Source: Peptococcaceae bacterium (GTDB lineage: Bacteria; Bacillota; Desulfitobacteriia; Desulfitobacteriales; Syntrophobotulaceae). Taken from it: a stretch of 58,524 nucleotides of DNA. The notes below the pieces were generated by a model. That model ran no database searches, had not been told where the DNA came from, and saw only the letters and a list, made by a program, of their open reading frames with translations. Where the stretch lies: the NCBI GenBank assembly GCA_012521215.1, contig JAAYMU010000148.1:1-58524 (forward strand), in the 5' to 3' direction. Positions 9,993 through 58,524 of the stretch are shown here, piece by piece. Both the position numbers and the translations under genes were made by a program. Position 1 is the first letter of the stretch, and every line of letters starts with the position of its first letter.

Positions 9993-11180
9993 ATGAATGC
10001 GGAAATTTTGGCCGTAGGAACGGAACTTTTGATGGGGCAGATCGTTAATAGCAATGCCCAGTACATTTCAAAAAGATTACAAGATATAGGAGTTAATGTT
10101 TATTACCATAGTGTGGTGGGCGACAATCCGACAAGACTCCGGGGGGCTTTAAATATAGCTCTGCAAAGATCTGATCTGGTCATTATGACCGGGGGGCTGG
10201 GTCCCACTCAGGACGATTTAACTAAAGAAACAGTAGCGGAGATCGTGGGTCGGAAGCTTGTGTTGCATACAGAGACTCTTGAGGATATTGAGGCCTTATT
10301 CCGAAGAGCCGACTGGACAATGACAGACAATAATAGAAAGCAAGCTTATTTCCCGGAAGGGTCTATAGTTATGAAGAATAGCCATGGTACTGCTCCGGGT
10401 TGCATTATGGAAACCGACGGAAAAATTCTTATTATGCTGCCCGGTCCGCCTTCCGAGATGAAGCCCATGTTTGAGCAAAGTGTGTTGCCGTATTTAGAAC
10501 AAAAATCGCCTTACAAAATAGTGTCAACCTACCTAAATATCTTTGGCATAGGAGAATCGGCGGTAGAAAACATGCTCATGGATTTAATCGTCCAGCAAAA
10601 AGATACTACCATAGCAACTTATGCCACTGACGGGCAAGTTACAGTTAGGCTGACCTCTAAGTGTGTAAAAGATAATCCAGAAGATTTGAATGCCGGAGTA
10701 GAAAAGGAAATAAGGAAAAGGTTAGGTGATAGGATATATTCCACCGGCAACAGTAGTTTAGCGGAAGTAGCCGGAAAACTTTTGCTGGAAACCAATACCA
10801 CGATTTCTATAGTCGAATCCTTTACCGGCGGTTTATTGGCTTGCGTTTTATCTAAAATACCGGGAATATCGCGTGTGTTTAAACAGGGGTTGATTACCTA
10901 TGCTAACAGCCGACCGGATAGGGAAACAGCTATCCAAGCAGCTCAGAATATAATGAAGATTTCCGGTTCCGATTTGGGCCTTGCCATTTTGGGCCCTTCT
11001 GACACCGGCGAGAATCATGAAAAAGATGAATACGCTTATATAGCCTTTGTTACTAGGAAACAAAACCAAGTCCAGTGTCTGGAATATAAGCTTGTAGGTG
11101 ACGGGCAAAGAAGAAGGAACCGTAGTGTGTTGCAAGCTTTAGATATAATGAGAACTTACATCCAGGAAAATATAAATTAA
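9993..11180 (+). CDS. cinA: CinA-like protein with degenerate C-terminal deamidase domain
   Basis: A 395-residue protein. Residues 1-170 form the molybdopterin-binding-like (COG1058) domain with ILAVGTELLMGQ, TGGLGPTQDDLT and LPGPPSEM. Residues 255-395 correspond to the PncC/CinA C-terminal amidase that deamidates nicotinamide mononucleotide. The amidase part is shortened: ESFTGG (275-280) keeps the serine of the usual ESCTGG, but after GLITYANS the usual lysine-containing stretch and the HGAVS segment are missing, and the TGIAGP loop reads LAILGPSD. NMN deamidation is therefore doubtful, while the N-terminal ADP-ribose pyrophosphatase-like domain looks intact. GGAGG precedes the ATG. Confidence 0.9.
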   Translation: MNAEILAVGTELLMGQIVNSNAQYISKRLQDIGVNVYYHSVVGDNPTRLRGALNIALQRSDLVIMTGGLGPTQDDLTKETVAEIVGRKLVLHTETLEDIEALFRRADWTMTDNNRKQAYFPEGSIVMKNSHGTAPGCIMETDGKILIMLPGPPSEMKPMFEQSVLPYLEQKSPYKIVSTYLNIFGIGESAVENMLMDLIVQQKDTTIATYATDGQVTVRLTSKCVKDNPEDLNAGVEKEIRKRLGDRIYSTGNSSLAEVAGKLLLETNTTISIVESFTGGLLACVLSKIPGISRVFKQGLITYANSRPDRETAIQAAQNIMKISGSDLGLAILGPSDTGENHEKDEYAYIAFVTRKQNQVQCLEYKLVGDGQRRRNRSVLQALDIMRTYIQENIN

Positions 11181-11258
11181 AGTAAATTTTAAAAACTAGA
11201 GTTTGAAAAGTAAAGGTTTAAGCGGTAAAATCCTAAGAGAAATAGCTATGAAAATAAA

Positions 11259-11300
11259 GGACAGTTCGTTTAGTTGTTTATAAACGGACTGTCCTAATTG
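11259..11300 (+). terminator. Hairpin after cinA
   Basis: GGACAGTTCGTTTA (11259-11272) pairs with TAAACGGACTGTCC (11281-11294). The T tract is weak, so it may act mainly as a 3'-end stabiliser for cinA; the convergent gene at 11382 lies beyond it. Confidence 0.6.
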
Positions 11301-11381
11301 TTATAATAAATCTATGGAATGTATTATGAATTCCTGGACAAATGCGGCAGAGGACACTCTTTTACTTAGCCTGATCAGCAG

Positions 11382-11702
11382 TTACTTACTTACTTTTGCC
11401 TGATCATAGGCTACAAGGGCTGCAGGCAGGCAAGTAACAACTCCTTTCATCCCACAGACCAGTAAAGTCATCAAAATAGCTTCTTTTACTTCATCCCGGG
11501 TGGCTCCTGCTGCTTTGGCCATTGGAGCATGTATTTTCACGGCGCCGACATCCCCTTCGGCTGCTCTCATGGCCATATAAATCAATTGTTTAGTTTTTTC
11601 ATCAAGTCCCTTGCTGGAGAAAACCGTTTTGGACATTTCATTATAAGCATCAAATAATTCTGGAGCTTCAGCGATCATAATATCTACCGGATTTTTTTCC
11701 AT
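11382..11702 (-). CDS. Carboxymuconolactone decarboxylase/AhpD-like family protein
   Basis: A 106-residue helical protein of the CMD/AhpD fold (KTKQLIYMAMRAAEGDVGAVKIHAPMAKAAGATRDE, written here as a region of residues 36-70 in overlapping motifs KTKQLIYMAM, GDVGAVKIH and AGATRDEVKEAI). The usual redox CxxC of AhpD is replaced by VGAV, so thiol peroxidase-reducing activity is not expected. Many such short, cysteine-less members exist in Clostridia with unknown function. GGGGAAAAAAAG precedes the ATG. The gene stands alone. Confidence 0.8.
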   Translation of the reverse strand: MEKNPVDIMIAEAPELFDAYNEMSKTVFSSKGLDEKTKQLIYMAMRAAEGDVGAVKIHAPMAKAAGATRDEVKEAILMTLLVCGMKGVVTCLPAALVAYDQAKVSK

Positions 11703-49202: not shown

Positions 49203-49631
49203 ATGTATATTTCTAAAAAGGAAATTCAGATAACATATGCTGACACGGATATGATGGGGGTTATTTACCACGCCAATTATCTGAAGTGGTTCGAGTTAGG
49301 CCGAACCGAACTTATTAAGGAACTTGGTTTTAATTATCAGGATATGGAGAAGGCGGGTTATGTGGCACCCGTTTATGAAGTTAAAGTTACATACAAGAGA
49401 CCTGTTCGTTACGGTGATGCTATCTATGTAGAAACCTGGATTGAAGAAAATACCGGTGTAAAAACTGTTTATGGCTACCAAATTGTTAACGATCAAGGCC
49501 TTGTTTTTGCTCAAGGGACAACAACCCATATAGTAGTGCGTAAGGATAATTTTAAACCAATACAATTTAAAAAAGTTTTCCCAGGCTGGTTCCAAAAATA
49601 TGAAGAAATTAAGAAGCATAAATCCGATTAA
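49203..49631 (+). CDS. Acyl-CoA thioesterase, 4-hydroxybenzoyl-CoA thioesterase/YbgC type
   Basis: A 142-residue hotdog-fold protein with YADTDMMGVIYHANYLKWFE (Asp16 is the catalytic-type residue of the DxxGxxY motif) and the segment FELGRTELIKELG. Such enzymes hydrolyse acyl-CoA; the acyl group is not predictable. The ATG at 49203 has only a weak upstream site (GGCTGG). The citrate synthase gene begins 64 bases downstream on the same strand. Confidence 0.9.
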   Translation: MYISKKEIQITYADTDMMGVIYHANYLKWFELGRTELIKELGFNYQDMEKAGYVAPVYEVKVTYKRPVRYGDAIYVETWIEENTGVKTVYGYQIVNDQGLVFAQGTTTHIVVRKDNFKPIQFKKVFPGWFQKYEEIKKHKSD

Positions 49632-49695
49632 ACTTTTGGTTTTAATTACTCTAATTGCATCGGGAAATCTTGGGGCTTAGTGAGGTGAATAATAT

Positions 49696-51072
49696 ATGGA
49701 ATGTATAGGTAAAGAGGATATGGAAGTTTTTAAAGAAGAGTTACTGCGCAAACTTAGTGAAAAGGCGTTAGTTAGTAGTAATATAGCTCCTGAACTATAC
49801 ACTAAATATGAGGTAAAAAGAGGCCTTCGTGATGCGGACGGCAAGGGAGTCTTGGTTGGGCTTACTGAAATTGGGGATGTACATTCCTATATTCTTGATG
49901 AAGGGGAAATGGTTCCTGTGCCCGGAAGGCTAACTTATAGGGGCATTAATATTAAGGATATTGTCAATGGTTTTATGGCCGACGGGAGATTTGGTTTTGA
50001 AGAAGTTACCTACCTACTTCTTTTTGGTCACCTTCCGGACGAAAAGACCTTAAAGGATTTTAAGAAGCTTTTAGGTATATATCAGCAGCTACCGGAAGAC
50101 TTTGTACGTGGAGTAATCCTCCATTCGCCCGGTAAAGATATTATGAATATGCTGGCCAGAAGTGTTCTGACCCTGTATTCTTACGATGATAATGCCGATG
50201 ATACTTCTATCCCTAATGTACTTAAACAATGCTTGAAGCTTATTGCCTGGTTTCCTTCCCTGGCGGTTTACGGCTATAATGCTTATGTTCATTATCATGG
50301 CAATAAAAGTCTTATTCTCCACAGCCCCAGACCTGAGCTAAGCACTGCAGAAAATATCCTGTATATGTTGCGGCCGGATTGCAAATATACGGAGCTGGAA
50401 GCAACTCTTCTGGATTTGGCCCTTGTATTGCACGCCGAACACGGAGGGGGTAACAATTCTTCATTTGTTACCCATGTCATAACCTCTACCGGAACCGATA
50501 CTTACTCGGTAATGGCTGCTGCTATTGGGGCTTTAAAAGGGCCGAGACACGGAGGAGCCAATATAAAGGCAGTCTATATGCTGGAGGATATAAAACGAAA
50601 TGTTAAGGATTGGCAGGATGACGATGAGATACGAAACTATCTATTCAAGATTCTAAGGAAAGAAGCCTTTGATAAAGCAGGCCTTATTTATGGCATCGGA
50701 CATGCTGTTTATTCCATTTCCGACCCTCGCGAGGTTATATTTGAACACTATGCCAGTAAACTGGCTAAGGAAAAAGGACTGGAAGAAGAATTTAATTTAT
50801 ATCTTAAGGTTGAAGAGCTTGCCCCAGGTGTTATTGCAGAACACACCGGAAATAACAAAGTAATCAGTGCCAATGTGGATTTTTATTCCGGATTTGTTTA
50901 TCGCATGCTAGAGATTCCGATTGAAATGTTTACACCGATATTCGCAATTTCCAGAATATCCGGCTGGAGTGCCCACAGAATTGAAGAAATAATTAGCCAT
51001 GGGAAGATTATCAGGCCGGCTTATAAGAGCGTAGCTCCCCGTCGAGAGTATATACCTTTGAAAGACAGGTAA
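49696..51072 (+). CDS. Citrate synthase family enzyme
   Basis: A 458-residue (Si-type) citrate or 2-methylcitrate synthase. Catalytic-region motifs are LHAEHGGGNNSSF, GPRHGGAN, GIGHAVY and VDFYSGFVY, which cover the active-site His, His and Asp. It condenses acetyl-CoA (or propionyl-CoA) with oxaloacetate. It is longer than the 370-residue Bacillus CitZ and has an N-terminal helical extension (about 1-60), as in clostridial enzymes. GTGAGGTG precedes the ATG. 2-methylcitrate use is possible given the PrpF-type isomerase 9 kb away, but nothing here decides it. A terminator follows. Confidence 0.92.
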   Translation: MECIGKEDMEVFKEELLRKLSEKALVSSNIAPELYTKYEVKRGLRDADGKGVLVGLTEIGDVHSYILDEGEMVPVPGRLTYRGINIKDIVNGFMADGRFGFEEVTYLLLFGHLPDEKTLKDFKKLLGIYQQLPEDFVRGVILHSPGKDIMNMLARSVLTLYSYDDNADDTSIPNVLKQCLKLIAWFPSLAVYGYNAYVHYHGNKSLILHSPRPELSTAENILYMLRPDCKYTELEATLLDLALVLHAEHGGGNNSSFVTHVITSTGTDTYSVMAAAIGALKGPRHGGANIKAVYMLEDIKRNVKDWQDDDEIRNYLFKILRKEAFDKAGLIYGIGHAVYSISDPREVIFEHYASKLAKEKGLEEEFNLYLKVEELAPGVIAEHTGNNKVISANVDFYSGFVYRMLEIPIEMFTPIFAISRISGWSAHRIEEIISHGKIIRPAYKSVAPRREYIPLKDR

Positions 51073-51188: not shown

Positions 51189-51318
51189 TTCATAACTTTA
51201 ATTTTAGAATTTATTCTGCTAAGATAAGGCTACAAAGAAGTTGGGATTTTGCATAATGATAACGGCGAAGTAATAATTACGCCAAAGTATTGCTTGGATT
51301 AGTAGTGGGGTGATAACC

Positions 51319-52920
51319 TTGGTTGGGGTTGAACAAGTTTCGGGTTTTTTGGCCAAGTATGGAGCAAAGGTTTTTATACAATCAAGGTCAACTTCGTTGG
51401 TTAAAGACTGTGTTTTTTTATATCAGGCAAAAGCTCCGTTAAGAACAAATATACTGTATGCCTGTACATCTGCAGAGCTTAGTGTTTTACCTACCAGCTC
51501 ATCGGAATTAAATATTTTGTGTATAAATGAAGGCAATCTTGATGATAATTATTGGACCCAAATAAAACATAATGTAATCGTAGTTCCTGCCAATAGGGAG
51601 ACGGATAGTATAGACATAAATCATTTAGTTAATAGTGTCTGTGAATATTTGAACTCATACTGGGAGTTAACCTTGGCTCAGTCTAAGTTGACGGAAGTTC
51701 TTCTTTCAGGAATGGGTCTGCAGCAAATTGTTGATACCGGCAGTGAACTTTTAGGAAATCCCATCCTTGTTATTGATATCAGCTTTAAAGTGGTTGCTTA
51801 TAGCAGGACAATTCAATCTGATGATATTCCTTGGCAAAAGATGACGGAGAGCGGGTATTGTTCTTATGAAATGATTGATGTCATGATCGACGATAGATAT
51901 GAGCATAGGTACAGCAAATTTCCTGTATACGTAAAAGCCCAAGCTATTTATCCTTATAATTCTCAGCTTTCCGGGATTAGAATCCGGGGGAAAACGGTTG
52001 GGCATGTCAGTCTAATCGAATGCAAAAGACCAATAAAAGAGACCGATGCTCTTCTTCAGAAATTTCTTTGTGACGTAATTGCCTGTGAAATGCAAAAAGA
52101 CAGTTTTACTAGTCAGTCTAAGGGGGTTATGTACGAGAATTTTATTGCCGATTTATTGGACGGTAAGATTAAAAACCGTAGGGTAATTGAGGAAAGAATG
52201 AAATTATTGGATTTTCTAAGGCAAGATATTTTTTATATCTTGACCGCGCGTTTGCGGCCCGAAATTGCAGTTAATAAGCCGCTTTTGTATTTTAGAGATG
52301 TTTTAGAAACTATTATTAGCGACAGCAAATGCCTCATCTATAAAAATGATATTGTTGCTCTGATTAGCAAAAGTAAGGAAAACGGTTTAAACAAAGCTGA
52401 GTTAGGTGAAGTTATTGGCTTCCTAAAAAAGCACCGCATGGTTGGCGGTTTAAGTAATTGTTTTGAAAATGTGGCAGAGGCTAAAACCTTTTACCAGCAG
52501 TCCTGCAAGGCCATTGAGCTGGGGCTGCGCTTGGATAGTGAGAAAACGTTATTTCAATATGAGCATTATTTTGTTTATAATCTGTTTGAAATTGCCGAAA
52601 AACAGGAAGATCTAAAGAATTTTTTAAGCCCTTTATTATTTCGGCTTATGAATTATGATTTGCAGAACAATACTGACTATATGGGCAGTTTGTATGCTTA
52701 TTTGGCCAGTGGCAATAACCTAACCAAAGCCGCTCAAGTGTTTGACATCCATCGTAATACTATGAATTACCGTATAAAACGGATTGAGGAAATTATGAAT
52801 GTCAATCTCAATGATCCCAATGTTAGTTTTATCCTCAATTTCTCTTTTAAATTGCTTTTGTTTTCTAATTATGGTGGGTCAAACTTGACTGAGGTTTTGA
52901 AAAAGTTATCAAGATTATGA
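51319..52920 (+). CDS. PucR-family transcriptional regulator
   Basis: A 533-residue regulator with a short N-terminal PurC-like regulatory region, a central GAF-like segment (about 130-250; GNPILVIDISFKVVAYSR) and a C-terminal PucR helix-turn-helix (about 465-515; YLASGNNLTKAAQVFDIHRN). PucR-type proteins usually activate catabolic or amino-acid/purine-use genes. I place the start at the TTG 51319 because GGGGTG lies six bases upstream; a GTG at 51310 is also in frame. It converges on the oxidoreductase operon, 68 bases away, and is the best candidate for its regulator. Confidence 0.87.
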   Translation: MVGVEQVSGFLAKYGAKVFIQSRSTSLVKDCVFLYQAKAPLRTNILYACTSAELSVLPTSSSELNILCINEGNLDDNYWTQIKHNVIVVPANRETDSIDINHLVNSVCEYLNSYWELTLAQSKLTEVLLSGMGLQQIVDTGSELLGNPILVIDISFKVVAYSRTIQSDDIPWQKMTESGYCSYEMIDVMIDDRYEHRYSKFPVYVKAQAIYPYNSQLSGIRIRGKTVGHVSLIECKRPIKETDALLQKFLCDVIACEMQKDSFTSQSKGVMYENFIADLLDGKIKNRRVIEERMKLLDFLRQDIFYILTARLRPEIAVNKPLLYFRDVLETIISDSKCLIYKNDIVALISKSKENGLNKAELGEVIGFLKKHRMVGGLSNCFENVAEAKTFYQQSCKAIELGLRLDSEKTLFQYEHYFVYNLFEIAEKQEDLKNFLSPLLFRLMNYDLQNNTDYMGSLYAYLASGNNLTKAAQVFDIHRNTMNYRIKRIEEIMNVNLNDPNVSFILNFSFKLLLFSNYGGSNLTEVLKKLSRL

Positions 52921-52988: not shown

Positions 52989-53401
52989 TTAGGAAGAAGT
53001 ACTGGTATACTCCACATTCGGTCCGCCTGAAAAATGGATGATCGGTCTCCGTAAATCCTCAATGACAAAGGGGCTGTGCTTCATTCCTGCAGGGACATAG
53101 ATGAGGGCGCTTTTGGTCAATACGATCCATTCCTCCTCCAGCAGGAATCTCACTGTTGCGCCCAGATCACTGGGGTTATCGGGGTCAGTACCAATGAAAC
53201 CGAGAAATTCATCAAAATCATGGGTATGAGTCGGGGGAGCGGGTTCGCGGGGGCTGATAAACCACATAATCTCAAAATAGGGGGCCTCGGCCATGGTGGA
53301 CCCATCCATATAGAGAATTTTTCTCATGATCGAGGGATCGGCCACTCTCCCTGGCTTGTCAGGCGTGTATCATACGTAATCAGATGGTCGTATTTACCCA
53401 T
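52989..53401 (-). pseudogene. Cupin-like small protein gene with a frameshift near its 5' end
   Basis: Downstream of AGAGGAG, an ATG at 53401 opens a frame reading MGKYDHLITYDTRL and 25 residues in all, ending in a TGA at 53324-53326. The adjacent -1 frame then reads MRKILYMDGSTMAEAPYFEIMWF-type sequence (in pieces: MRKILYMDG, PYFEIMWF, THTHDFDEFLGFIG, VPAGMKHSPF) to the stop at 52989, a small cupin-like protein. The two parts together look like one complete family member of about 135 residues. A single missing base near 53327-53345 would explain this; no slippery heptamer is visible. Alternatively a GTG at 53345 starts a 118-residue protein. Confidence 0.6.
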
Positions 53402-53528
53402 TTTTTTCTCCTCTCTGTTTTTACTTATTTAAATTTTCAAATGGCATTTGAACTACTATTCTAAATACTTAATTGTCGTTAGTTTGCTCTAAAATCCTGC
53501 GGTATATCTTAAGATTACAGCTTTAGCC

Positions 53529-55484
53529 TTAAATATTGCAGCATAGGTCATAAGACTTAAGATTGGCGTTTTTGATGTTTTTAACTTCATAGGCATCGCC
53601 AATAACGTAAACATCGGGTATGAGGTAACGGAAGGGGTCAATGGCGGCGGTATTGCTTTTCATGCCGAAAGCTTCTACCACATAATCGGCGGGAAGTGTT
53701 TTTTGCTTCCAATCCTTATCCTCCACGACGACACCTTCTGTAGTGATGGAACGGACAATATGACGGCCAAGCTTGGTAATTTTATGCTCCTCGAGGAGAT
53801 AAAGCAGCATTTGGCGGGTTATGGGATGAAGACCGGAGGCGAAATCCTTCTCCTCAATTTGGTCTACAATTGTCACCTCACAGCCGTCCATAGCCAGTTG
53901 AAGAGCCGACTCGCAACCGGATAGCCCTCCGCCGCAGACCACGATGCGGCCTGACAGTTTAACTCTGCCGGAATCAACATCCAGGACGTTGAAAACGTTT
54001 TCCAAGTTCAATCCCGGCACAGGGGGTCTTAGGGGTACACTGCCTGTGGCAATTAATATGACATCAGGAGATTCGGCCCTAACCATGGCGGGGGTTGCTT
54101 CACAGTTTAAACGGATATCGGCTCCGCACTGTAGAGTGGTTCGGCTAAGCCATTGGGTATAACGTAAAAGATCGTCCTTGAAAGACAATTTATTGATATC
54201 GTGCAGCAGACCGCCAAGGCGGTCATTTTTTTCAAACAGGACGACCTCATGTCCGCGCTTAACCAGAGTCTGCGCCGCCTGGCAGCCGGCCACCCCGCCG
54301 CCGATAACTACCACTTTCTTTTTTTCCTCGGCCTTTCTTACTTTGTCATAAGGAAAGCTCCTTCCCAGGGAGGGGTTAACGGCACAGGAAATATGGGAAC
54401 CAAAACCGCCGGCGCAGCTGTAGCAGCGCAGGCAGGGACGAGTATCTTCCGGACGCCCGCGCCAGGCTTTGTGTAACATTTCGGGATCAGCGAGCAGGCT
54501 GCGGGCTATGGCACACATATCGGCGCTGCCTTCGGCGATAATTTTTTCAGCCATATCGGCCGAGACAATGCCACCCACAACGCTGACCGGAATTCGGATT
54601 TCCGGACACTGTTTTATAGCCCGGGCATAGGGTATATTGGCTCCTTTGGGACGGTAATAGGGAGGCATGCTATAAAACTTTTGCTTATCGATATTGAGGC
54701 CTGCGGATACATTGACCAGGTCAATATATTCTTGGGCCACCTTCAAAAACTCAATAACCTCCTGAACTTGTACGCCGCCCGGGACGATTTCATCGCCGCT
54801 AATACGGTATTCAATAAGAAAGTCTTTACCTACAGCTTCTCGCACGGCTTTAAGTACCATAAGCGGAAACCTGATGCGGTTTTCAAAGCTGCCGCCATAG
54901 ATATCGGATCTGTGGTTGGTAAGGGGGGACATAAACTGGGCCAGGAGTTTGCCATGGGCGCCGTGAATCATTACCCCGTCAAAACCGACTTTTTTCAGCC
55001 GAAGGGCACAGTCGCCAAAGCAATGGACAACATATTCAATATCATGCTGATCCATCTCCTTAATATATTGGCTTTGTCCGGGAACTGGGATATTGGAGGG
55101 GGCCAAAACATAAGGAGCAGTAATCACTTGCGGGTTAGCCCCGCGTCCGGCGTGCACCAGTTCTACGGACAGTTTGGCACCGCCGCGATGCGCTGCTTCC
55201 GCCAGCAGGTACAGATGGTTGATTTTCAAGTCGCTCGTTACATCCAGTTCGGAGGGATAGTCCGGAGCCGTGGCTTTATCTACGGGGGTGGCTCCGAGCG
55301 TAATCAGCGCAACACCGGTACGGGCTTGGGCCTCTACGAAATCGATATAAGCTTGGGTAGCTTCCCCGTTGCAATTGGTTAGGTCACTGACCAAGGGAGA
55401 GAATTCTATGCGGCTTTTCAAAGTGGTATGGCCGACCTTAATAGGTGAGAATATATGTTCATAATTATTAAACGGTACTTTCAT
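53529..55484 (-). CDS. NADH:flavin oxidoreductase, FadH/BaiCD-type Fe-S flavoprotein
   Basis: A 651-residue enzyme with an FMN TIM barrel of the Old Yellow Enzyme family (about 8-340), a [4Fe-4S] site with Cys351, Cys354, Cys357 and Cys367 (CLRCYSC, then SCAVNP), and an FAD/NAD(P) Rossmann part with GGGVAG (395-400). Relatives reduce enoyl or dienoyl CoA esters, steroid-type acids or similar double bonds. The active-site loop reads HGAHGKLLAQF, with Lys179 where E. coli FadH has Tyr166. GAAAGGAG precedes the ATG. It is cotranscribed with the SDR gene 33 bases upstream. The substrate is unknown. Confidence 0.92.
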   Translation of the reverse strand: MKVPFNNYEHIFSPIKVGHTTLKSRIEFSPLVSDLTNCNGEATQAYIDFVEAQARTGVALITLGATPVDKATAPDYPSELDVTSDLKINHLYLLAEAAHRGGAKLSVELVHAGRGANPQVITAPYVLAPSNIPVPGQSQYIKEMDQHDIEYVVHCFGDCALRLKKVGFDGVMIHGAHGKLLAQFMSPLTNHRSDIYGGSFENRIRFPLMVLKAVREAVGKDFLIEYRISGDEIVPGGVQVQEVIEFLKVAQEYIDLVNVSAGLNIDKQKFYSMPPYYRPKGANIPYARAIKQCPEIRIPVSVVGGIVSADMAEKIIAEGSADMCAIARSLLADPEMLHKAWRGRPEDTRPCLRCYSCAGGFGSHISCAVNPSLGRSFPYDKVRKAEEKKKVVVIGGGVAGCQAAQTLVKRGHEVVLFEKNDRLGGLLHDINKLSFKDDLLRYTQWLSRTTLQCGADIRLNCEATPAMVRAESPDVILIATGSVPLRPPVPGLNLENVFNVLDVDSGRVKLSGRIVVCGGGLSGCESALQLAMDGCEVTIVDQIEEKDFASGLHPITRQMLLYLLEEHKITKLGRHIVRSITTEGVVVEDKDWKQKTLPADYVVEAFGMKSNTAAIDPFRYLIPDVYVIGDAYEVKNIKNANLKSYDLCCNI

Positions 55485-55517
55485 AACCTTGCTCCTTTCT
55501 TATCATAACCTTCCAGG

Positions 55518-56324
55518 TTAACCAATGCAGAGAAGTCCGCCGTCATGGACAATAATAGTGCCTGTGATATGACAGCCGGCAGGGGAAGCCAGAAAGACAC
55601 AAAGAGCACCAATCTCTAGAGGCTCACCGAAGCGGTGCATGGGCATGCGTTCTTCAATTTTGGTGAAAGCATCGGGAGGAAGTTGCTTATCAAGATCGGA
55701 ATGGGTTGGGCCGGGTGCTATGGAGTTAACTCGGATGCCGTAATCGCCGAATTCGATCGCTAAGGACCTCGTTAAGTTGTCCAGGGCCGCTTTACAGGCA
55801 TGGTAGGCAATATTGGGATGGGTCCTGGTACCGGCTACGGACTGGCCGCCGATAGACGAGATATTAATAATGCTGCCGCCCTTTTTCCCTTCAATTATTT
55901 TGGGAGCAAAGGTATAGATCACATTGGCCGGGCCATGAAAATCCGTTGCCGCCACCTCATGCCATTGGCGGAGGTTTTCATCTTCCAGAAAACGAACTGA
56001 GGCGGCGATGCCGGCGTTATTGACCAGGACATCGATGCTTGGAAATACCTCAAATACTTTTTGGGCGGCATTTTTGACACTTTCCAGATCGGCTATGTCC
56101 GCTTGGAAGACATATGAGGCTATGCCGTAAGCAGCCAGTTTTTCGGCGGCTGCCTTGCCGCTTTCCGGATTGCGGCAGAGGATAGCCACATTAGCTCCGC
56201 CCTGGGCAAAGGCCGAAGCAATACCAAACCCGATCCCGCGGTTTCCCCCGGTAATAACGACATTTAGTCCTTTTATGGAAAAAGCACCTTCCATAGTGGT
56301 GATGGGTGATGTCCTAATGACCAT
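55518..56324 (-). CDS. Short-chain dehydrogenase/reductase
   Basis: A 268-residue classical SDR: cofactor motif TGGNRGIG (25-32), NNAG (102-105), catalytic Ser156/157, Tyr174 and Lys178 (YHACK), and the C-terminal region IVHDGG. The residue pattern near the end of strand 2 (LCRNPESG, Arg51) suggests NADP(H) as likely, but this is weak. It oxidises or reduces a hydroxyl or keto group on an unknown substrate. The ATG at 56324 follows AAGGAGGAGC; a longer reading to 56366 has no such site. It sits between two Fe-S flavoenzyme genes in one operon. Confidence 0.93.
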   Translation of the reverse strand: MVIRTSPITTMEGAFSIKGLNVVITGGNRGIGFGIASAFAQGGANVAILCRNPESGKAAAEKLAAYGIASYVFQADIADLESVKNAAQKVFEVFPSIDVLVNNAGIAASVRFLEDENLRQWHEVAATDFHGPANVIYTFAPKIIEGKKGGSIINISSIGGQSVAGTRTHPNIAYHACKAALDNLTRSLAIEFGDYGIRVNSIAPGPTHSDLDKQLPPDAFTKIEERMPMHRFGEPLEIGALCVFLASPAGCHITGTIIVHDGGLLCIG

Positions 56325-56387
56325 ATTGCTCCTCCTTCCAGTCAGAAAAAAATAATCCAATAACAAATTGTTTTTTCAGCAGAAACA

Positions 56388-58355
56388 TTAGAAACGACCT
56401 AAGCTAACGGCTATGTCATGGGCTGTACCGGTAGCGTTAGCAATATTTTGGGGAGTAATACAGTCCCCGATCATATGAAACTCCGGGGCGCAGAACCTAA
56501 GGGCCAGGGCTTCATCTTGCAGCGGTTGCTGGCCGACGGCATAAATCACGCTATCCGCTTCCAAAAATTCTTTTCCTTCTTTTGTTTCACAGACAATGCC
56601 CTGAGCGGAAATCTCATTAACTTTGGTATTGAATCTAAGGCTGATTCCGTGTTTTTTAAGTTCTACCTCCAAACTTCTGGCGTGAAGTATATTGCCGCCG
56701 TCGCTGATTTTATCCGTTAGCTCCACAACGGAGACAAGCTTGCCCAGGATGGACAGGTATATAGCCAGTTCCAAGCCCACGAGACCGGCACCGATGATAA
56801 TAGCCTTTTCACCGACTTTTTGCGGATATCGATAGGCTTCTTCAGCTCCCAGGACATTAGGCCCGTCGATGCCCGGAATATCCGGTTTTACAGGTCTAGA
56901 CCCCAGGGCGGCAATAATAACATCCGGCTCAAGGGAAGAAGCCAGTTCCGGAGTGACTTCAGTATTGAGACGGAGATCAATATTTGCTGTGGCTATGGCT
57001 TGAGCCTGGGAATCCAGGTACATAGCCAGCTTTTTCTTAAAAGGCACATCTTTTTCGCAGCGGATGGCGCCACCCAGGACGCCGCTTTTTTCACAGAGTA
57101 TGACTTGATGGCCGCGCTCGGCGCAGCTTAAAGCCGCCTGCATGCCGCCGATACCGCCGCCTACGACAAGCACTTTTTTTCGGGTTTTAGCTTGCCTGAA
57201 TTCGTACTTGGATTCGTGTTCCCGACCGCTTTCCGGATTGACCGCGCAATATTTAACTCCATATTTCATTTGTGTAGAGAAACAGTGCAGGCAGCGCAGG
57301 CACCATTTGATATCATCCAGGCGCCCGGCCCGTATTTTATTGGGCAGATCGGGGTCGGCAATTAGGCTTCGGGCTATTTCAACGACATCCGCTTTTCCGG
57401 AGGCGATAATTTCTTCCAGCATTTCCGGTTCACCCAGGGCTCCAATTGCTGCGATAGGAGTTTTGACGTGTTTTTTTATTTCGGCGGCATACTTTACATT
57501 GCAGCCGTCACCTAAGAACATACTGGGAGTCATAACAGAAAATGCTTCTTGGACCTCGTGGCTTCCCACCGAAACATTTATCAGATCCACGTATTCCTCT
57601 AACTGTTTAGCAAAGGCAATGCCTTCTTCAAGGTCATATCCGCCGTCATAACCTTCACTGGCACTAATTCGGATCTCAATTGGGAAATTGGGACCTACGG
57701 CTTTACGTACCGCCTCGCAGACGGCAACGGCAAATCGGGCGCGGTTTTCGATGGCGGGCCCGCCCCATTTGTCTTTTCGTCTATTGAGCTGGGGAGAAAG
57801 GAACTGTTGTAACAACCAGCCGTGACCGGCATGAATTAATATCATGCCAAAACCGTAGTTTTTGGCGGCAGCGGCAGCAGCTGCGTATTTTTCAATGGTC
57901 CGTTCAATAATCTCCTCCGGCATTTCCCGGATAATTCTGCCGTCTAATTCTAATTCCACTGGACCGTAAGCCACTCCCCTGGAAGTAGCGCCGAATACGG
58001 ACAGATCACGGTTGGCGTACATACCCGCATGTTGCAGTTCGGCAGTGGGCACGGCGCCGTACCTGCTTATGGCTTTGGCTATTTTCTCCAGAGGCATTAG
58101 GGATTGAGGATTATCAATACAAATATGATTGAGGCTGCCCCGGCCGAATTCCGTGTCCACAACCAATTCCCCGGTGGCAACGGAAGCTGCTCCGCCCATG
58201 GCTTTCCTGCCATAGTAATCCCCTGCTTCCAGCGGCCAGACACTGTCATAGGTCATATTGCGATATCCGGTGGGAGCGGCAAATATCCGATTGCGGAACA
58301 AGGTGCCGCGGAGTTTTAAGGGTTCAAACAGATGTGGGTACTTAATTTTTTTCAT
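56388..58355 (-). CDS. Second NADH:flavin oxidoreductase, FadH/BaiCD-type Fe-S flavoprotein
   Basis: A 655-residue paralogue-like enzyme of the same architecture: OYE barrel (about 8-345), [4Fe-4S] ligands Cys352, Cys355, Cys358 and Cys370 (CLRCLHC, then YCAVNP), and FAD/NAD(P) domain with GGGIGG (399-404). The active-site loop is HAGHGWLLQQFLSP, so Trp180 stands where FadH has Tyr166 and the other flavoenzyme here has Lys. The two proteins are clearly diverged, so they likely act on different intermediates. GGAGGAAAAATA precedes the ATG. It lies 46 bases after the TRAP permease gene and 63 bases before the SDR. Confidence 0.92.
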   Translation of the reverse strand: MKKIKYPHLFEPLKLRGTLFRNRIFAAPTGYRNMTYDSVWPLEAGDYYGRKAMGGAASVATGELVVDTEFGRGSLNHICIDNPQSLMPLEKIAKAISRYGAVPTAELQHAGMYANRDLSVFGATSRGVAYGPVELELDGRIIREMPEEIIERTIEKYAAAAAAAKNYGFGMILIHAGHGWLLQQFLSPQLNRRKDKWGGPAIENRARFAVAVCEAVRKAVGPNFPIEIRISASEGYDGGYDLEEGIAFAKQLEEYVDLINVSVGSHEVQEAFSVMTPSMFLGDGCNVKYAAEIKKHVKTPIAAIGALGEPEMLEEIIASGKADVVEIARSLIADPDLPNKIRAGRLDDIKWCLRCLHCFSTQMKYGVKYCAVNPESGREHESKYEFRQAKTRKKVLVVGGGIGGMQAALSCAERGHQVILCEKSGVLGGAIRCEKDVPFKKKLAMYLDSQAQAIATANIDLRLNTEVTPELASSLEPDVIIAALGSRPVKPDIPGIDGPNVLGAEEAYRYPQKVGEKAIIIGAGLVGLELAIYLSILGKLVSVVELTDKISDGGNILHARSLEVELKKHGISLRFNTKVNEISAQGIVCETKEGKEFLEADSVIYAVGQQPLQDEALALRFCAPEFHMIGDCITPQNIANATGTAHDIAVSLGRF

Positions 58356-58401
58356 TATTTTTCCTCCATTGTTTTTGACCTTAATAAAGTTTAAACAAGA
58401 A

Positions 58402-58524
58402 TTACATTAACAAGTTCGGCAGGTAGGTGGCTATGCCGGGGAAGATGCTCATAAGCAGGGCCATAGCCAAATAGGCGAAAATAAATGGAATGGACCCCTT
58501 GAATACTTGTTGCAAGGCAACCCC
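58402..58524 (-). CDS. TRAP transporter large permease, C-terminal fragment
   Basis: The last 40 codons of a gene that runs off the window. The reading ends PGIATYLPNLLM, preceded by a membrane helix with PFIFAYLAMALLMSIF; this is the C-terminal end of DctM-type TRAP permeases. Such transporters take up dicarboxylates or other organic acids with a binding protein and a small permease. It is in the same direction as, and 46 bases before, the flavoenzyme gene, so uptake and metabolism are probably one operon. Confidence 0.72.
   Translation of the reverse strand, partial: GVALQQVFKGSIPFIFAYLAMALLMSIFPGIATYLPNLLM

Follow-up and report, generated by a model that had tools for sequence, protein, structure and literature searches.

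A TRAP transporter-flavoenzyme-SDR gene row with an active-site departure in a Peptococcaceae bacterium and its possible role in the reduction of plant-derived acids

Which compound is taken up, and what is done to it, by the products of the transporter, flavoenzyme and SDR genes lying at the end of contig JAAYMU010000148.1 of a Peptococcaceae bacterium? The window analysed here (58,524 nucleotides) is the whole of that contig (C195), one of 234 in a genome of 2.5 Mb. The original prediction described five closely spaced minus-strand genes at positions 52989-58524 with a convergent PucR-type regulator, and read them as a module for an organic acid.

Gene order and completion of the operon

The following features were assigned.
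58402-58524, minus strand: C-terminal 40 aa of the TRAP large permease DctM; open-ended ORF at which the contig ends, complete in the sister genome
56388-58355, minus strand: flavoenzyme 1, 655 aa (PF00724, 1.2e-55; PF07992, 1.3e-33), motif HAGHGW
55518-56366, minus strand: classical SDR (PF13561, 6.2e-59)
53529-55484, minus strand: flavoenzyme 2, 651 aa (PF00724, 2.7e-63; PF07992, 3.5e-28), motif HGAHGK
52989-53401, minus strand: cupin gene with a 1-nt deletion, as judged by comparison with the related genomes G002 and G001; readable C-terminal ORF at 52989-53345
51310-52920, plus strand, convergent: PucR-type regulator (PF13556, 2e-16; C-terminal HTH_30)

From DctM through flavoenzyme 1 and the SDR to flavoenzyme 2 the genes are separated by 46, 21 and 33 bp, which is the spacing expected of one transcript, and a further 183 bp lie between flavoenzyme 2 and the cupin ORF; promoter and terminator scans of the operon returned no more than was found in shuffles. 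The five close genes and their strand were as originally predicted, except that the cupin gene is not intact and that PucR lies outside the interval given for the module.

It had also been proposed that the rest of the TRAP genes would be found by extending the sequence to the right, which proved correct but only by way of relatives, as the window ends with its contig. The sister genome G001 (MAG Peptococcaceae bacterium AS21ysBPME_346) shares 88.8% DNA identity over 3339 bp and continues past the window end, giving the full order LysR-type regulator, flavoenzyme 0, DctP, DctQ, DctM, flavoenzyme 1, SDR, flavoenzyme 2. At this locus (L036) DctM passes TIGR00786 and DctP (10599-11642) passes NF037995, while DctQ was assigned by similarity. 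Since the G001 DNA runs on into a complete DctM, the 40-aa fragment in the window can be identified as DctM, and the predicted TRAP permease is thereby confirmed as a DctM-type carrier. In the window's own genome, the pair of LysR and flavoenzyme 0 genes sits at the end of contig C218, so we infer that C218 and C195 join and that DctP, DctQ and most of DctM fall into the assembly gap between them. Another DctM gene at a contig-end break (C81) was considered as the missing neighbour and rejected, being only 46% identical to the sister DctM. The matches of the TRAP binding protein in the PDB were all distant and indicated no ligand.

The SDR carries the classical set of motifs (GGNRGIG, NNAG and YxxxK); its TTG start may be placed too early, as there is an in-frame ATG about 40 bp downstream. 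A citrate synthase gene and PucR also follow flavoenzyme 2 in G001, with PucR in the same position (88%), and the 3' end of PucR is readable in G002. This position suggests that the regulator may belong to the system; its N-terminal sensor domain was matched by no Pfam model. Just upstream of PucR, positions 49203-51072 of the window encode a YbgC/FadM-type thioesterase and the citrate synthase (PRK14032 type).

Signs of decay in the cupin gene and in the sister operon

In the congener G002, flavoenzyme 2 is followed by a cupin of 137 aa that is intact. In the window, the RBS-preceded ATG at 53401 is followed by one base fewer around codon 13 than in G002, which puts the gene out of frame and leaves a readable 118-aa downstream remainder with the metal-binding cupin motifs, and all that is left in G001 is the last ~18 codons. 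Judging from these sequences, the cupin would be either dispensable or decaying here, or the deletion in the window would be an assembly error; as a stable member of the operon, which it had been taken to be, the cupin did not hold up. No sequence match was found for it in Pfam, NCBIfam or the PDB. Its structure model shows a partial cupin fold resembling epimerase and lyase cupins, a resemblance to be read as a hint only, because the model is of low confidence (pLDDT 64). A second TRAP-SDR row of the same genome (contig C98, L059, 4218-9268), whose SDR is 58% identical to that of the window, includes on the opposite strand a 280-aa two-domain homologue of this cupin, itself of no recognised family, which suggests that cupins of this kind travel with TRAP and SDR genes. 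In addition, flavoenzyme 1 of G001 (L036, 13644-15614) is interrupted by a single in-frame TAA at a position that codes for glutamate in the window, and, since the cupin decays as well, the cell may be able to do without the module, or the module may have degraded in part.

Flavoenzymes 1 and 2

Both flavoenzymes consist of an OYE barrel (PF00724), Fe-S cysteines and a C-terminal FAD/NAD(P) domain (PF07992), and by sequence they are assigned to the three-cofactor proteins of the FadH/2-enoate reductase type. The consensus of the Fe-S motif between the domains is CX2CX3CX11-13C; all four cysteines are present in both proteins, as CX2CX2CX11C in flavoenzyme 1 and as a short CX2CX2CX9C in flavoenzyme 2, and may hold a cluster. 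The spacing before the last cysteine, usually 11-13 residues, is thus 9 in flavoenzyme 2; it is short in the nearest relatives of this protein as well, with about 7 in Sporobacter (L107).

The AlphaFold2 model of flavoenzyme 1 (pLDDT 92) has 2-naphthoyl-CoA reductase (NCR; 6qkg, TM 0.92) as its top fold match, followed by 2,4-dienoyl-CoA reductase (1PS9, TM 0.90) and then trimethylamine dehydrogenase; the best sequence match is NCR too, again followed by dienoyl-CoA reductase. The best NCBIfam model for both flavoenzymes is BaiCD (NF041087), an assignment that was rejected at 432 and 402 bits; with about half of the cut-off of 825 bits reached, the close link to bile acids considered earlier was not upheld. 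The long form of bilirubin reductase (NF045599, cut-off 750 bits) was rejected likewise, the scores being 397 and 361 bits and the motifs HGW and HGK, not HGDR.

An alignment of 93 relatives with E. coli FadH, in which Y166 marks the proton-donor position, places Trp there in flavoenzyme 1 and Lys in flavoenzyme 2. Among the 93 relatives this column holds Trp in 56, Asn in 23 (including the nearest relatives of flavoenzyme 2), Lys in three, all of them flavoenzyme 2 of this genus, and His, Gln or Phe in nine; Tyr is confined to FadH and one paralogue group. Both proteins are therefore placed in a Tyr-less branch of the superfamily and not with the canonical ene-reductases. In a FastTree tree computed with the columns of the proton-donor position left out, which has several long branches, the Trp state needs one change against a shuffled mean of 29.8, and all seven states together need 7 (minimum 6, shuffled mean 34.9). 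The branch uniting all Trp rows has weak support (53), and 53 of the 56 group together with good support. Every Trp, Asn and Lys row retains the HxxH pair of YqjM-type OYEs; the residue corresponding to FadH H252 is kept in 52 of the 56 Trp rows and is Asn in flavoenzyme 2. Since each of the two Tyr-less groups contributes one member, flavoenzymes 1 and 2 are not two copies of one enzyme, and such mixed rows recur on contig C55 and in the termite and rumen rows described below.

The proton-donor tyrosine has been called invariant in OYEs, and it is Tyr197 in NCR (PMC6502838); a departure is already known from BilR, which has Arg at the position of the donor Tyr (PMC10769871). Among open-licence papers, no literature was found on this operon or on the Trp-type OYE class.

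Conservation of the row in other genomes

Within the genus, flavoenzyme 2 is 93-96% identical in two congeners, and the SDR is 91% identical in G001 and 95% in G002. A termite-gut Oscillospiraceae MAG (WRJA01000004) has the row DctP, DctQ, DctM, flavoenzyme 1, flavoenzyme 2, flavoenzyme 0 and an AFOR-family gene, with gaps of 22-91 bp and identities of 70%, 65% and 54% for flavoenzymes 1, 2 and 0, respectively. With this TRAP-flavoenzyme row kept in another lineage, conservation of the order reaches beyond the genus, and the arrangement is more than chance. In Sporobacter termitidis DSM 10068, a cultured carrier, the SDR (61%) adjoins flavoenzyme 2 (66%). A flavoenzyme-SDR-flavoenzyme-flavoenzyme-flavoenzyme row (SDR 58%) of a rumen Lachnospiraceae MAG lies close behind a molybdoenzyme pair, the small subunit of which has pyrogallol transhydroxylase as its best match (7e-47). 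An absence of conserved order, named beforehand as the outcome that would speak against the operon, is not what the termite, Sporobacter and rumen rows show. Neither a CoA ligase nor an acyl-CoA enzyme could be recognised among the identified neighbours in the two TRAP-flavoenzyme rows, in line with the original observation for the window. The carrier genomes come from rumen, termite gut and digesters, the habitats being partly inferred.

Host genome setting

The host has 23 PF00724 (OYE-barrel) genes in 2.5 Mb, at least 17 of which are full-length relatives of flavoenzyme 1; there are 17-19 in G001, G002 and G021 and 0-9 (median 2) in 37 other relatives. It also has eight copies of AFOR_N and at least six small subunits of the pyrogallol-transhydroxylase type, six of them with E below 1e-45. 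These six, a striking number for 2.5 Mb, are found on contigs C79, C43, C121, C221, C7 and C41, most of them beside a large subunit; TRAP genes are located near the one on C121 and a Trp-type flavoenzyme near the one on C7. One of the large subunits matches the Pelobacter enzyme (4v4c_A) at 2e-135, far above DMSO reductase.

Contig C67 (L155, 962-7765) carries in one row genes coding for CtfAB, a thiolase, an SDR, a PF04199 cyclase, a PF05853 (BKACE) cleavage enzyme and a 3-hydroxyacyl-CoA-dehydrogenase-like protein, which is the gene set published for phloroglucinol degradation in Clostridium scatologenes (PMC10470551), so this row is apparently a phloroglucinol-degradation operon. The SDR of the window was considered as phloroglucinol reductase and rejected, as the DPGC and TAL genes on C67 have an SDR of their own, with 36% identity between the two.

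Of the 16 other genomes with relatives of flavoenzyme 1, 13 have a transhydroxylase subunit as well. Within 41 relatives of the host it occurs in 4/5 carriers and 8/36 others (p=0.02), counts that are not phylogenetically independent; because the carriers were found by a scan with flavoenzyme 1 and are related to each other, the co-occurrence overstates independence. With the OYE expansion, the transhydroxylase-type molybdoenzymes and the phloroglucinol operon, the host, an uncultured anaerobe, is probably a polyphenol fermenter and the module a part of that metabolism.

Two further rows of this genome contain related flavoenzymes. Contig C181 (L039, 2969-15393) carries, all on the minus strand, TRAP DctPQM, a Trp-type flavoenzyme, an SDR, MmgE/PrpD, an ABM protein, AFOR, ferredoxin, a metallo-beta-lactamase-fold protein and a PEP-mutase-family protein; loci L044 and L136 are partly similar to it, and its TRAP-flavoenzyme-SDR-PrpD-AFOR-ferredoxin module points the same way as the window operon. 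On contig C24 (L049, 1248-8159), MutE and MutL of the methylaspartate-mutase type are found beside an Asn-type flavoenzyme and an iron alcohol dehydrogenase.

Functional interpretation

With a probability of roughly 0.5, the operon serves the uptake and reduction of a plant-derived aromatic or alicyclic carboxylic acid that is not activated with CoA. The TRAP transporter would import the aromatic-derived or alicyclic carboxylate, and two or three flavoenzymes would pass hydride from NADH through FAD, Fe-S and FMN to a C=C bond in conjugation with an oxo, phenolic or carboxyl group that the two histidines of the HxxH pair keep in place. Protonation would come from another residue, such as His266 in flavoenzyme 1, or from solvent, and the SDR would interconvert a ring hydroxyl and ketone between the flavoenzyme steps. 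The product would enter the polyphenol-fermentation route of the cell or leave the cell, with reduction serving as an electron sink. Gene order, TRAP type and genome setting support the original reading, in which the module has a catabolic or electron-accepting role and handles a free acid of aromatic-derived, alicyclic or unsaturated type, while we infer the substrate class, direction, step order and absence of CoA activation from sequence; a CoA ligase may be encoded elsewhere in the genome, though none was recognised in the rows. As a whole, that interpretation is partly supported, and it had missed the replaced catalytic tyrosine and the expansion of the OYE gene family.

A plain operon for side-chain enoate reduction, in which phenylpropenoic acids such as cinnamate, caffeate and ferulate are used as an FldZ-like electron sink, seems rather unlikely. 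TRAP systems for aromatic acids are known, the host setting is rich in lignocellulose, and clostridial 2-enoate reductases share the cofactor architecture (PMC5882074), but such a pathway would not need two different flavoenzymes and an SDR, which make ring chemistry likelier than a single side-chain reduction; moreover, both flavoenzymes lack the Tyr donor of the characterised Tyr-type ene-reductases, so simple enoate reduction may not be their reaction. It is likewise unlikely, if as a special case of the main reading, that quinate, shikimate or another polyhydroxylated alicyclic acid is dehydroxylated in a Bai-like 'oxidise, eliminate, reduce' manner, with the SDR making a ring ketone, a hydroxyl being eliminated and the flavoenzymes reducing enones to cyclohexanecarboxylate-type products, the cupin having perhaps once been the lyase or epimerase, as its weak model would suggest. 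An SDR with two flavoenzymes does match the logic of the bai pathway (PMC11574389), a reductive gut route from quinate to hexahydrobenzoate has been reported with its enzymes mostly unknown (PMC11602726), and the carriers probably come from fitting habitats; however, no dehydratase is fixed in the operon, and of three congeners only one has the cupin intact, the gene being frameshifted or deleted in the others.

The opposite, oxidative direction, with the flavoenzymes acting as dehydrogenases of an amine or a cyclic acid (TMADH-like, histamine-dehydrogenase-like or aromatising), is improbable: the nearest folds include TMADH and histamine dehydrogenases, and a lost proton donor would fit an oxidative reaction, but both proteins keep a recognisable NAD-binding subdomain, and their sequence and fold matches to reductases are stronger. 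Reduction of a steroid, bile acid or terpenoid acid is hardly credible, since BaiCD, although the best NCBIfam model of both flavoenzymes, is matched with 432 and 402 of the 825 bits needed and the row is without other bai genes.

Reduction of a plant-derived acid thus remains the preferred reading, and the sequences argue for a conserved catabolic or electron-sink unit with a noteworthy active-site departure. As a speculative extension, the Trp clade and the Asn/Lys clade would each represent an uncharacterised catalytic class of OYE-type Fe-S flavoenzymes. Jointly with the SDR they would act on the rings of hydroxyaromatic or alicyclic acids in their free form, perhaps dearomatising these without CoA activation, and would provide polyphenol-fermenting Clostridia of gut, rumen and digester with their main reductive toolkit. 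Should the Tyr-less clades prove to be active reductases, the OYE proton-donor rule would break down in a large natural group, and a simple motif could be used to look for the enzymes still missing from quinate or polyphenol reduction in gut and rumen. For most Fe-S flavoenzymes of Clostridia no function is known, although some strains hold more than 10 (PMC11574389). In the present host, which has at least 17 of them, an operon that is conserved and linked to a transporter connects two clades defined by sequence with the breakdown of plant acids and narrows the candidate substrates to a short, testable list.

Comparison with known systems

E. coli FadH (1PS9) and the clostridial 2-enoate reductases (FldZ) share with the window enzymes the FMN barrel, the Fe-S linker, the FAD/NAD domain and a length of ~650 aa, the likeness to FldZ being drawn at the level of architecture and not from its active-site residues. 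Compared with FadH, to which they are about 30% identical, the window enzymes have Trp or Lys at Y166 and HxxH in place of MGSE, and they are linked to a TRAP transporter. The type III aryl-CoA reductase NCR has the three-domain fold and three-cofactor architecture in common with flavoenzyme 1, but it keeps its donor Tyr197 where the window enzymes have Trp or Lys, and it takes a CoA ester as substrate and does not use NAD(P)H (PMC6502838), whereas no CoA ligase was seen in the window operon. BaiCD/BaiH and BilR belong to the same enzyme superfamily, and bai likewise combines two flavoenzymes with a dehydrogenase; the window enzymes differ in reaching about half of the curated cut-offs and in having neither an HGDR motif nor other bai genes beside them. 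As for the phloroglucinol and tannin fermentation of Clostridium scatologenes and Pelobacter (PGR-DPGC-TAL and transhydroxylase), none of its genes is part of the window operon, and they are found elsewhere in the genome of the same host.
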